From the NCBI GenBank assembly GCA_020848275.1, contig JADLAK010000073.1:1-64000 (forward strand): 64,000 nucleotides of DNA, written 5' to 3'. Both the position numbers and the translations under genes were made by a program. Position 1 is the stretch's first letter; every line of letters begins with the position of its first letter. Below, piece after piece: positions 8,341 through 47,489 of the stretch. Source of the stretch: Planctomycetota bacterium (GTDB lineage: Bacteria > Planctomycetota > UBA8742 > UBA2392). The notes below the pieces were generated by a model. That model made no database searches and had not been told where the DNA came from. It saw only the letters and a list, made by a program, of their open reading frames with translations.

Positions 8341-8573
8341 GCAGTCGATTTAACTCTTGGCCGCGTGGCAAGTTATGGATTGCTAACTTGCGCTTAACAT
8401 CCGGCGCTGCGGGAGTCGCCGCCCCTGCTGGCATCTTCAATGGCAACGTATAGGTCAGAGTTACCAGTAAATGTATATTTTGTGCACATGGCGCAAATGT
8501 CAGGAAGTCAATGTTACCGTGGATATCCCTCGGAAGCCCTTGAAATAGAGCCTTTCAGGCTGTTTGGCGTGAT

Positions 8574-8589
8574 TGGCACGCGGGTTGCA
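8574..8589 (+). promoter_or_regulatory. Sigma-54 promoter core with no obvious downstream gene
   Basis: TGGCACG (8574-8580), 4 nt, TTGCA (8585-8589) is a perfect match to the -24/-12 core, with GG and GC 12 nt apart. Transcription would start near 8600, pass through the hairpin at 8638-8661 and run antisense into the aminotransferase 3' end. No convincing protein gene follows on the plus strand before 10393. The surrounding gap 8341-8765 otherwise holds only a weak 76-aa ORF. Confidence 0.6.
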
Positions 8590-8637
8590 ATACTAGTCTA
8601 TTGGAAGACCGGCCCCCAAGCCGTTTTCTACGCCGAG

Positions 8638-8661
8638 CAAGCCCAGGGTGACCTGGGCTTG
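8638..8661. terminator. Perfect 10-bp hairpin in the 8341-8765 gap
   Basis: CAAGCCCAGG, loop GTGA, CCTGGGCTTG. There is no T tract on either side, so it is not a classical terminator. It lies about 40 nt after the predicted sigma-54 start and could be the structured part of a small RNA. Confidence 0.45.
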
Positions 8662-8765
8662 TATCGTTAACGACGCCCGCCGCCGGAAGCGTGATCGCCA
8701 AGGCCTCCCAATCATGGTGGGGCGTCCAACCAACTACTTTGGCCGTGATCGCAACCGGACACCCT

Positions 8766-44897: not shown

Positions 44898-45155
44898 GTG
44901 CCGAAATGGCCGGACTGGTGGGAGTGGGAGCTGGATGTCTCCAACCCGCATTTGCGGGACAACATGGTTATTCGACGCTTTAGCGAAGTCGATTTGCGCG
45001 ATATGATGGAAAACGCGCGCAAATTAGCGCGTGACGTTGTGCCGGGCCGCTGGATCGTGGAGACACGGTTCGACAGCGCAGACTGGGAAGTCATCGTTGA
45101 ACCTGATGCGGTCAAACAACGTCTGATCGTGGTTACCGCCTACGAAGTGTACTGA
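44898..45155 (+). CDS. DUF4258-type small protein, possible toxin of a TA-like pair
   Basis: The 85-aa protein begins with a GTG at 44898, and its ribosome binding site TAAGGA overlaps the aldehyde dehydrogenase stop. It has WPDWWEWELDVSNPHLRDNM, FSEVDLRDMMENARKL, GRWIVETRF and WEVIVEPD..LIVVTAYEV, the pattern of DUF4258 proteins, small basic-and-acidic proteins of the RelE/BrnT-like toxin world. It is coupled to the next gene by TGATG. Together they sit between duplicated ends of another gene. A toxin role is inference from the family and context. Confidence 0.65.
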   Translation: MPKWPDWWEWELDVSNPHLRDNMVIRRFSEVDLRDMMENARKLARDVVPGRWIVETRFDSADWEVIVEPDAVKQRLIVVTAYEVY

Positions 45156-45421
45156 TGAGTGACTATCCGTATCTCCACGTGACCTTTAGAAACGGCAAGT
45201 TCTTTGCCGCGTACCTTTATTTGGCTGAACCGCGCGGCAAAGGACGCCCGAAGACCAAGCGCCTGTCTGGCTCAGTGTTGCTCGATGTTGATGAAAACGG
45301 CACTCCCATCGGCGTGGAGATTCTGTCGCGCGAGGGCCTGGATGCAGCAACACTAAACAGGCTTTTGAAACCTCATGGTGTCCGCACGATCGAACCGCGC
45401 GAGCTTGAAACGGCCGCCTGA
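45155..45421 (+). CDS. DUF2283-type small protein, possible antitoxin partner
   Basis: The 88-aa protein starts at ATG 45155, overlapping the previous stop by one base (TGATG), so translation is coupled. It contains FFAAYLYLAEPRGKGRPKTKRL, SVLLDVDENGTPIGVEILS and LNRLLKPHGV. The stretch D-V-D-E-N-G-x-x-I-G-x-E-I-L is the signature of DUF2283. DUF4258 and DUF2283 genes are found next to each other in many genomes, and an antitoxin role has been proposed for such partners; here it is inference. Confidence 0.65.
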   Translation: MSDYPYLHVTFRNGKFFAAYLYLAEPRGKGRPKTKRLSGSVLLDVDENGTPIGVEILSREGLDAATLNRLLKPHGVRTIEPRELETAA

Positions 45422-45442
45422 CCTTCGTTTCTCAGCGCAATC

Positions 45443-45497
45443 GGGTTTGACCGACGCAGCTCACGCAGACCAAGAGCGTCTGGGTGCAGCTGTAACG
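45443..45497 (+). repeat. Direct repeat, copy 2 (ALDH 3'-end duplicate)
   Basis: GACGCAGCTCACGCA, CCAAGAGCGTCTGGGTGCAG and CTGTAACGG recreate the last codons (SKSVWVQL-like, here TKSVWVQL) and stop of the aldehyde dehydrogenase. It is followed at once by a strong terminator, so this may be the original gene end. Confidence 0.85.
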
Positions 45498-45539
45498 GAA
45501 CATTCGCACTTGCCGTTACACGACTGAAACAAAACGTTC

Positions 45540-45571
45540 ACGACGCCCCGGGTTCTCCCGGGCGTCGCTTT
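45540..45571 (+). terminator. Rho-independent terminator
   Basis: CGACGCCCCGGG, loop TTCT, CCCGGGCGTCG and then CTTTGTTT. It lies downstream of the duplicated aldehyde dehydrogenase end and before the MRDD-family gene. Confidence 0.85.
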
Positions 45572-45574
45572 GTT

Positions 45575-45590
45575 TGGCACGGCGGTTGCA
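45575..45590 (+). promoter_or_regulatory. Sigma-54 promoter core before the MRDD-family gene
   Basis: TGGCACG (45575-45581), GCGG, TTGCA (45586-45590) is a perfect -24/-12 match, continued by ATATCGC. The predicted start of transcription (about 45601) is only a few bases before the ATG at 45606, so the message would be nearly leaderless. The flanks resemble those of the site at 8574-8589. Confidence 0.65.
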
Positions 45591-45605
45591 ATATCGCGCC
45601 GCGCT

Positions 45606-46412
45606 ATGCGTGACGACCTTGACCGAGTCATTATTAACAAGCCCCGCTGGAATCCTCGCGATGACAGCTCGCGCCTACGTTGGTGCGATCTCGAGGACGC
45701 TCCCGCGCGCGAGCCGATCAATCCCTACAACAACCGCAAGGGATTCACGGACCGGCTTGGACCGCTGCGCCGCTGGCTTGACGCGCAGGTCGGCCGCCAT
45801 TGGGACAAGGTCTACGGCGACCTCTGCGGCAGTCTGGATCGCCGCAAGGTTTCCGCGGACCACGTCTTTCTGCACGCCATGCGCTGGATTGCGCTGAACA
45901 CGCGTAAGGTCGACGGCGAGATTGTTGATTCGGCGGGCAACCCGCTCGTGGGGCGCTATCGCCCGTATGACTTTTACGTTTGTCCGCTGAGCGGAATGTT
46001 CCGGCGTGTGCCGGTTCGGCGCGAGAGTCGCCCGAAGAAGCTGACGATTGGCAATGCGCTTCTCTATCGGCCGGTGAGGTTCCGCAACACCATTGCCGTC
46101 CGACTGGAGGACCCGCAGGAGCGCTGGTACCGGATCAACGGGGCGTGGTACTTCGCTGAACTGGTCAGCCGCTGGAAGCACGAGTATCGCGACCGTCGGA
46201 AGTTCGACGAACCGTGGAATCTCGTCGAGGACGGTGTGCTTCGCCTGGTCCTTGGCCGTGCGACGGTCACCCGCTTACCGCAAGCGCTGGGCGAGGACTT
46301 CCTCGAAGACCTTCACGGCCGTGAGGGCAACTGGGTTTGGTTGGCGAACGAAGTCCGTCAACTCAAGCATGAGGAGATTCGTGACCTCGGCCTGCACAAG
46401 CGGGCGGCATAA
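45606..46412 (+). CDS. MRDD-family protein, unknown function (planctomycete-associated)
   Basis: The 268-aa protein starts at ATG 45606 (MRDDLDRVIINKPRWNPRDD), which is the conserved start of a multicopy family I know from planctomycete genomes. Other hallmarks are DLEDAPAREPI, LGPLRRWLDAQVGRHWDKVYGDLC and YDFYVCPLSGMFRR. The protein is basic, with no signal peptide, membrane segment or catalytic motif I recognise; the family's function is not known to me. The second half (LQALGEDFLEDLHGREGNWVWLANEVRQLKHEE-like) appears specific to this copy. It is preceded by a sigma-54 promoter core at 45575-45590. Confidence 0.75.
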   Translation: MRDDLDRVIINKPRWNPRDDSSRLRWCDLEDAPAREPINPYNNRKGFTDRLGPLRRWLDAQVGRHWDKVYGDLCGSLDRRKVSADHVFLHAMRWIALNTRKVDGEIVDSAGNPLVGRYRPYDFYVCPLSGMFRRVPVRRESRPKKLTIGNALLYRPVRFRNTIAVRLEDPQERWYRINGAWYFAELVSRWKHEYRDRRKFDEPWNLVEDGVLRLVLGRATVTRLPQALGEDFLEDLHGREGNWVWLANEVRQLKHEEIRDLGLHKRAA

Positions 46413-46476: not shown

Positions 46477-47028
46477 ATGCAGCTCGACGCCGACATCTGT
46501 TATGCCGCACTGCTCAAACGCGACCGCCGCTTCGACGGCCAGTTCTTCGTTGCGGTGAAGACCACGCGTATCTACTGCCGGCCGATCTGTCCTGCGCGCA
46601 CCGCCAAACGCGAGAACGTGACGTTCTACGCGACCGCCGCCGAGGCCCAGCGCGGGGGTTTTGTCCCCTGCCTGCGCTGCCGCCCCGACCTCGCGCCGGG
46701 TTCTTCCAGCGTCGACGCCAAGGCGACGCTCGCCAAACGCGCAACTGCGGTGATCAACAAGAACTGGCGGCTGGGCGTCGAAACTCTTGCGGCGACGCTG
46801 GGCGTCACGGCGCGGCACCTGCGCCGTGCGCTGCACGACGAGCTCGGCATCGCGCCGCTGGCATTTTTGCGCACTCAGCGTCTGGCTGTGGCAAAGCGGC
46901 TGCTGCGCGAAACCAACCTGACCGTCGCGCGCGTCGCGTTCGCCAGCGGATTTAACAGCGTGCGCCGCTTCAACGCCGCATTTCGCCAACACGTCGGCCA
47001 TGCGCCCAATACCTTGAGGAGACCATGA
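46477..47028 (+). CDS. Ada-type methylphosphotriester sensor with AraC-like HTH (AdaA-like)
   Basis: The 183-aa protein joins the N-terminal Ada domain, with zinc-binding cysteines in TRIYCRPICPAR and FVPCLRCRPD, to an AraC-type DNA-binding domain (LGVTARHLRRALHDELGIAPLAFLRTQRLAVAKRLL..VAFASGFNSVRRFNAAF). The first of these cysteines accepts methyl groups from phosphotriesters, turning the protein into an activator of alkylation repair. It overlaps ogt by 4 nt (ATGA). The organisation is the split AdaA/AdaB type rather than the fused Ada. Confidence 0.9.
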   Translation: MQLDADICYAALLKRDRRFDGQFFVAVKTTRIYCRPICPARTAKRENVTFYATAAEAQRGGFVPCLRCRPDLAPGSSSVDAKATLAKRATAVINKNWRLGVETLAATLGVTARHLRRALHDELGIAPLAFLRTQRLAVAKRLLRETNLTVARVAFASGFNSVRRFNAAFRQHVGHAPNTLRRP

Positions 47029-47489
47029 ACTATTTCCTCGAAGTCGAAAGCCCGATCGGCCCTCTGTTGCTGACCTGCAACGACGAGGGTTTGACTAGCC
47101 TGCACATGGGCGGCGGCAACCCGCCCACCGGCGCGACCCGCGGTCACGCGATCCTCGATAAGGCGCGCAGACAGCTCGACGAATATTTTGCGGGCAAACG
47201 GCGCGACTTCGACCTGCCGCTCGCTGCCGAGGGCACGCCCTTCCAGCGCAAAGTCTGGAAGGCGCTGTGTACCATTCCCTTTGCCGCGACCGCAAGTTAC
47301 GGCGAGGTCGCCCGCAAGGTCGGACAGCCGCAGGCGTCGCGCGCGGTGGGGGGCGCGAACAACCGCAACCCCATCGGGATTATCGTGCCGTGCCATCGGG
47401 TGATCGGCGCCGACGGCTCGCTGACGGGTTACGGCGGCGGCATAAAGCGCAAGCAGTGGCTGCTCGAGCACGAACGCGGCGCGAGTTAA
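47025..47489 (+). CDS. ogt: Methylated-DNA--[protein]-cysteine S-methyltransferase
   Basis: The suicidal repair enzyme moves the methyl group from O6-methylguanine to its own cysteine. The 154-aa protein has FQRKVWKALCTIPFAATASYGEVARKVGQP, ANNRNPIGIIVPCHRVIG with the active PCHR cysteine, and the end GYGGGIKRKQWLLEHE. It is coupled to the AdaA-like gene by a 4-nt overlap, so it is probably induced by alkylation damage. Confidence 0.95.
   Translation: MNYFLEVESPIGPLLLTCNDEGLTSLHMGGGNPPTGATRGHAILDKARRQLDEYFAGKRRDFDLPLAAEGTPFQRKVWKALCTIPFAATASYGEVARKVGQPQASRAVGGANNRNPIGIIVPCHRVIGADGSLTGYGGGIKRKQWLLEHERGAS

Follow-up and report, generated by a model that had tools for sequence, protein, structure and literature searches.

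A predicted sigma-54 promoter ahead of a phage-associated gene, and a sister promoter ahead of a conserved small RNA candidate, in a Planctomycetota genome

A −24/−12 sequence was found directly upstream of the MRDD gene in the 64,000-nucleotide stretch of Planctomycetota DNA analysed here (hereafter, the window). It is probably a working sigma-54 promoter that places this presumably captured phage-family gene under the control of the host and yields a near-leaderless message. The promoter itself is of an ordinary, known type; it is the gene behind it that is unusual. A sister promoter in the same window precedes a conserved small RNA (sRNA) candidate, and the family of this sRNA is the most valuable part of the results. 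The features identified are listed in Table 1.

Table 1. Features identified around the two sigma-54 promoters of the window
Feature	Position	Strand	Basis
Sigma-54 −24/−12 promoter of the MRDD gene, TTGGCACGGCGGTTGCA	45574..45590	+	sequence, pattern counts, matrix
Predicted transcript start, 5 nt ahead of the ATG	45601	+	standard sigma-54 spacing
MRDD gene (268 aa; phage-associated family of unknown function)	45606..46412	+	ORF, homology
Candidate activator site, inverted repeat TGTAACGG-N14-CCGTTACA (GTAAC/GTTAC boxes)	45491..45520	.	sequence, box-pair count
G+C-rich hairpin bordering the −24 element on its upstream side, with CTTTGTTT after it	45541..45567	+	hairpin and terminator scans
Sister sigma-54 promoter, TTGGCACGCGGGTTGCA	8573..8589	+	sequence, pattern counts, matrix
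Conserved sRNA candidate	8600..8671	+	DNA search, alignment, covariance model, folding
Palindrome ATGTATATTTTGTGCACA, candidate activator site upstream of the sRNA promoter	8471..8488	.	family comparison
GTTACC box upstream of the sRNA promoter	8460..8465	.	GGTAAC/GTTACC in 14 of 16 genomes

The exact core TGGCAC-N5-TTGC occupies positions 45575–45589 on the forward strand (TTGC at 45586–45589), and both the GG of the −24 element and the GC of the −12 element are present at the correct spacing. The ten fixed bases of the core occur twice in the window, compared with 0.12 occurrences expected in 64 kb on both strands by our own arithmetic. A sequence-only reading of this DNA had proposed a sigma-54 promoter within 45575–45640, with the −12 element at 45586–45590, and had likened its core and flanks to those of the site at 8574. 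Both proposals agree with the present results: the 20-mers of the 45574 and 8573 sites (TTGGCACGGCGGTTGCAATA and TTGGCACGCGGGTTGCAATA) are mismatched at only two positions, the core is exact and scores highest in the window (see below), and the genome has genes for one RpoN and for about nine activators (strong matches). The longer pattern TTGGCACG-N4-TTGCWATA, which was derived from the very two sites that it matches, occurs nowhere else in the 4.41-Mb genome; both sites lie inside the window, and the reversed control has no match. When one mismatch was allowed in the sigma-54 motif, no enrichment was seen (112 matches versus 115 for the reversed motif), and thus only near-perfect sites are informative. 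The pattern TTGGCAYNNNNNTTGCW gave 6 matches in this genome versus 1 for the reversed control, and 86 versus 10 over the 16 genomes of the family (our own sums).

A 17-position matrix was built from 88 sites of the 16 family genomes, with the MRDD site left out. It ranked the 45574 site first in the window (28.0), followed by the 8573 site (26.8) and, at a distance, by a site scoring 15.6. The score of 28.0 compares with a maximum of 28.1 among the 88 training sites; as these sites were picked by pattern, it is a measure of typicality rather than an independent proof. The other family genomes lack the MRDD gene and thus offer no comparison for the conservation of its promoter.

It is unlikely that the −24/−12 sequence is a chance or dead match and that the MRDD gene is transcribed from another, unrecognised promoter or by read-through. 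The 10 reversed matches against 86 imply that about one in nine sites could be due to chance, and a gene pair on the same strand ends at 45421 and could supply read-through. Against this rival reading, the matrix score is among the highest of all sites, the core lies 16 nt ahead of the gene on the correct strand in a short intergenic gap, and a pair of GTAAC boxes is present at the right distance upstream. The hairpin at 45541–45567 also separates the promoter from the genes upstream of it; it is possibly the terminator of those genes, although it did not pass a strict terminator scan. In addition, no sigma-70-type promoter was found in 45380–45700. The region 44898–45421 contains two small ORFs in an overlapping-style arrangement resembling that of toxin–antitoxin genes, the second of which matches DUF2283.

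With a working sigma-54 promoter at this site, RpoN-polymerase would wait at 45574–45590 as a closed complex, which an NtrC-type AAA+ activator, probably bound to the inverted repeat TGTAACGG-N14-CCGTTACA about 80 nt upstream, would open under its inducing condition. Because the C of the −12 GC is at 45589, the usual sigma-54 spacing would place the transcript start at about 45601, and the ATG is at 45606. The predicted leader thus consists of 5 nt (GCGCT) and carries no Shine–Dalgarno (SD) sequence, in line with the near-leaderless message, starting about 5 nt before the ATG, that had been suggested from the sequence. In many bacteria, a 5-nt leader lacking an SD sequence is expected to be translated poorly, which counts against this reading. 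From the SD-less mRNA, translation would begin at the conserved AUG at 45606 and would produce the 268-aa protein of the phage-associated family. Compared with other sigma-54 (RpoN) promoters activated by bacterial enhancer-binding proteins (bEBPs), that of the MRDD gene shares the −24/−12 core, the canonical spacing, an encoded RpoN with activators, and upstream dyads as candidate activator sites. No categorical difference was seen; what stands out is an unusually short predicted leader and a sporadic gene of a phage family.

The genes located downstream of the sigma-54 sites in the family include those for groEL (15 sites), an ECF sigma factor (12), dnaK (12), and clpB (9); the ECF factor was identified by Pfam and the chaperones by reading their sequences. 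A small RNA also recurs behind the motif, and the 24 remaining sites are mixed, with genes for CBS-domain and exported proteins among those downstream. Besides the MRDD and sRNA sites, the genome of the window has four more: one lies ahead of groEL, one ahead of dnaK, and one (G000:C58:56813, L102) ahead of a lone receiver-domain gene that precedes a second groEL, while the fourth is unclear. Sigma-54 promoters of groEL, dnaK, and other chaperone genes were predicted earlier in Planctomycetota (PMC12316311), and groEL and dnaK have such promoters in this family too, whereas the MRDD and sRNA promoters lack the chaperone dyad described below and seem to respond to another activator.

The upstream sequences suggest that the sigma-54 promoters of the family are split into candidate activator-specific subregulons. 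The strict dyad pattern CTGYCA-N3-TGGC was found at 15 of 15 groEL, 8 of 9 clpB, and 4 of 12 dnaK promoters. These chaperone dyads (within loci L135–L201), of which there are often two per promoter, form a candidate site for the activator of a chaperone regulon. Nine of the 12 ECF promoters carry CTCTTG...CAAGAG beside the −24 element. In 10 loci (L137, L146, L150, L157, L161, L169, L179, L182, L185, and L191), CTCTTG/CAAGAG palindromes were observed on both sides of the sigma-54 promoter of the ECF sigma factor gene. Paired GTAAC/GTTAC boxes, 4–30 nt apart in the zone from −110 to −35, were found at the MRDD promoter and at 6 of the 24 remaining promoters (expected 0.07); as the motif had been spotted ahead of the test, the probability is optimistic. 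One sRNA promoter also has such a pair, and none of the 48 chaperone or ECF promoters does. The boxes common to the MRDD gene and the six other promoters thus hint at a specific activator. Membership of the MRDD gene in the sigma-54 chaperone (proteostasis) regulon, with no separate subregulon, appears rather improbable: family sites do recur ahead of groEL, dnaK, and clpB, and the clpB sites have the same G/GTTGCA form as the core at the MRDD gene, but the CTGYCA-N3-TGGC dyad was not found upstream of the MRDD gene. More tentatively, a single GTAAC-recognising bEBP may run a sigma-54 subregulon in this planctomycete family that comprises the lineage-specific sRNA, exported and FHA-like proteins, and, here, the near-leaderless captured phage-family gene.

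The proteins of the MRDD family share the pattern MR-DM-KVI-E-PR ... PLRR ... VGRPWDKVYSEI ... KRQL-KELR-LGL, and M1, R2, and D4 are invariant in an alignment of seven homologues. The ATG at 45606 is supported by this alignment, as the relatives also start with MR-D. No family passed the threshold in searches of Pfam, NCBIfam, PHROGs, and PDB sequences (Raf1_HTH matched below it and was disregarded), and neither a plasmid search nor a first scan of genome contigs with the window protein alone gave a match. Profile searches identified homologues sporadically in a few other planctomycete metagenome-assembled genomes (MAGs) and also on viral contigs. On one of the latter (L232), the ORF adjoining the homologue reads like a major capsid protein, in our own reading. 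The L232 protein in turn retrieved WNM70250.1 of Myxococcus phage Mx1 (28% identity, E = 4e-19), a hypothetical protein that is a full-length relative of the MRDD family but is borne by a phage, inside a run of hypothetical genes. AlphaFold2 modelling with 12 homologues gave a pLDDT of 63.5, with a confident region at about residues 50–135, and no fold in PDB or BFVD matched the model convincingly. These homologues make up an unnamed phage-associated protein family, and a host has apparently put one of its members under a conditional promoter.

The upstream DNA of MRDD-family genes was searched for the core, as the sequence-only reading had proposed, and its suggestion that sigma-54 control is a trait of the whole family did not hold. 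Of 4 planctomycete and 6 distinct viral-contig loci whose homologue clearly starts with MR (the Mx1 relative is not among them), none has a sigma-54 core in the 160 nt upstream, and the best matrix scores ranged from −17.6 to 4.1, compared with 28.0 at the window gene. In addition, the gene is single-copy in its own genome, and the searches did not recover it from the other 15 genomes of the family. Family-wide control, in favour of which the window copy stands alone, is therefore very improbable, because the homologues with a clear start, both chromosomal and viral, have no core in the 160 nt upstream. The link to sigma-54 is instead a property of the window locus, and a conditional role remains a reasonable expectation for this copy of the protein. 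Because the distribution of the gene is patchy and homologues occur on phage, acquisition is the best reading; the window copy was probably acquired horizontally, to judge from these sequence comparisons, and would then have been placed under a sigma-54 programme of the host. Downstream of the MRDD gene, the region 46477–47489 contains a gene for Ada (metal-binding and AraC-type domains), followed by an ORF read as an Ogt-like methyltransferase gene, and alkylation repair is seemingly split over these two genes.

The sister site at 8573 and the RNA behind it are regarded as a new candidate sigma-54-dependent sRNA, with RpoN at the sister promoter expected to give rise to a conserved structured RNA of about 70 nt. 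A DNA search with positions 8540–8690 found matches in all 16 family genomes (L048–L063), each with the RNA of about 70 nt behind a sigma-54 promoter, and 15 of the copies are full-length. The promoter has the exact form TTGGCAY-N5-TTGC in 15 of the 16 genomes, at a near-constant distance from the RNA; in the exception (L063), the −12 element reads CTGC and the copy ends at the edge of the contig. In all copies, the −24/−12 promoter is followed by the invariant GGAAGACCGGCCCCCAAGCCGTTTTCTACGCC and then by a hairpin that is altered in sequence yet remains paired. RNAalifold predicted two hairpins, i.e. a 5′ hairpin with the loop CCCCAA in the invariant core and a covarying 3′ hairpin after it. 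All variation lies in the 3′ hairpin; the 5′ hairpin is invariant and thus carries no covariation information. In the alignment, 99.7% of the cells pair, and nine pairs have changed on both sides (32 cells), a level that none of 500 shuffles reached; slid versions dropped to 41–48%. Folding z-scores of five copies ranged from −4.9 to −7.1. In two genera, a clear T-run (TTTTT) comes after the 3′ hairpin; in the others, the genome of the window included, the run is weak, and termination at this hairpin is thus not assured.

In a set of 294 genomes of the phylum, a covariance model of the sRNA gave strong matches inside the family only. Weak matches outside the family (best E = 1.6e-5) were taken as chance hairpins. 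The exact 20-mer of the core was found in 14 records, all of them Planctomycetota MAGs, in a collection of 84,980 species with one genome each. The sRNA had no match in Rfam at the gathering score and no convincing match below it, and literature searches found no such sRNA in the phylum; the sRNA therefore adds a sigma-54 sRNA family that is absent from Rfam. The possibility that the sequence is a short ORF was rejected, given the frame-breaking indels in the 3′ part and the lack of synonymous variation in the core. In the window, the gene upstream encodes a Tim44-like protein, and several other genomes have a different sequence at this position, so that the sRNA looks like a separate gene. 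The candidate resembles Qrr (PMC10162802) and GlmY/GlmZ in that a short structured RNA is located right behind a −24/−12 promoter with candidate activator sites upstream, but no relation to them was found by sequence or in Rfam, and the window sRNA occurs in only one family of Planctomycetota. In 14 of the 16 genomes, 72 nt separate the −24 element from the end of TGTGTA-N6-TGCACA, the candidate activator palindrome of the sRNA set; in the genome of the window, the distance is 84 nt. The C-rich loop of the sRNA could pair with G-rich ribosome-binding sites.

In L092–L099 (G001, G002, G007, G008, G009, G010, G013, and G014), a REP-like palindrome, mostly CAGTCCACNGGACTG, lies downstream of the sRNA, and behind it the 3′ hairpin recurs as a second copy, in some cases together with the end of the core. 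In several genomes, the loop of the second copy is the same as that of the first, as if a target duplication or gene conversion had occurred.
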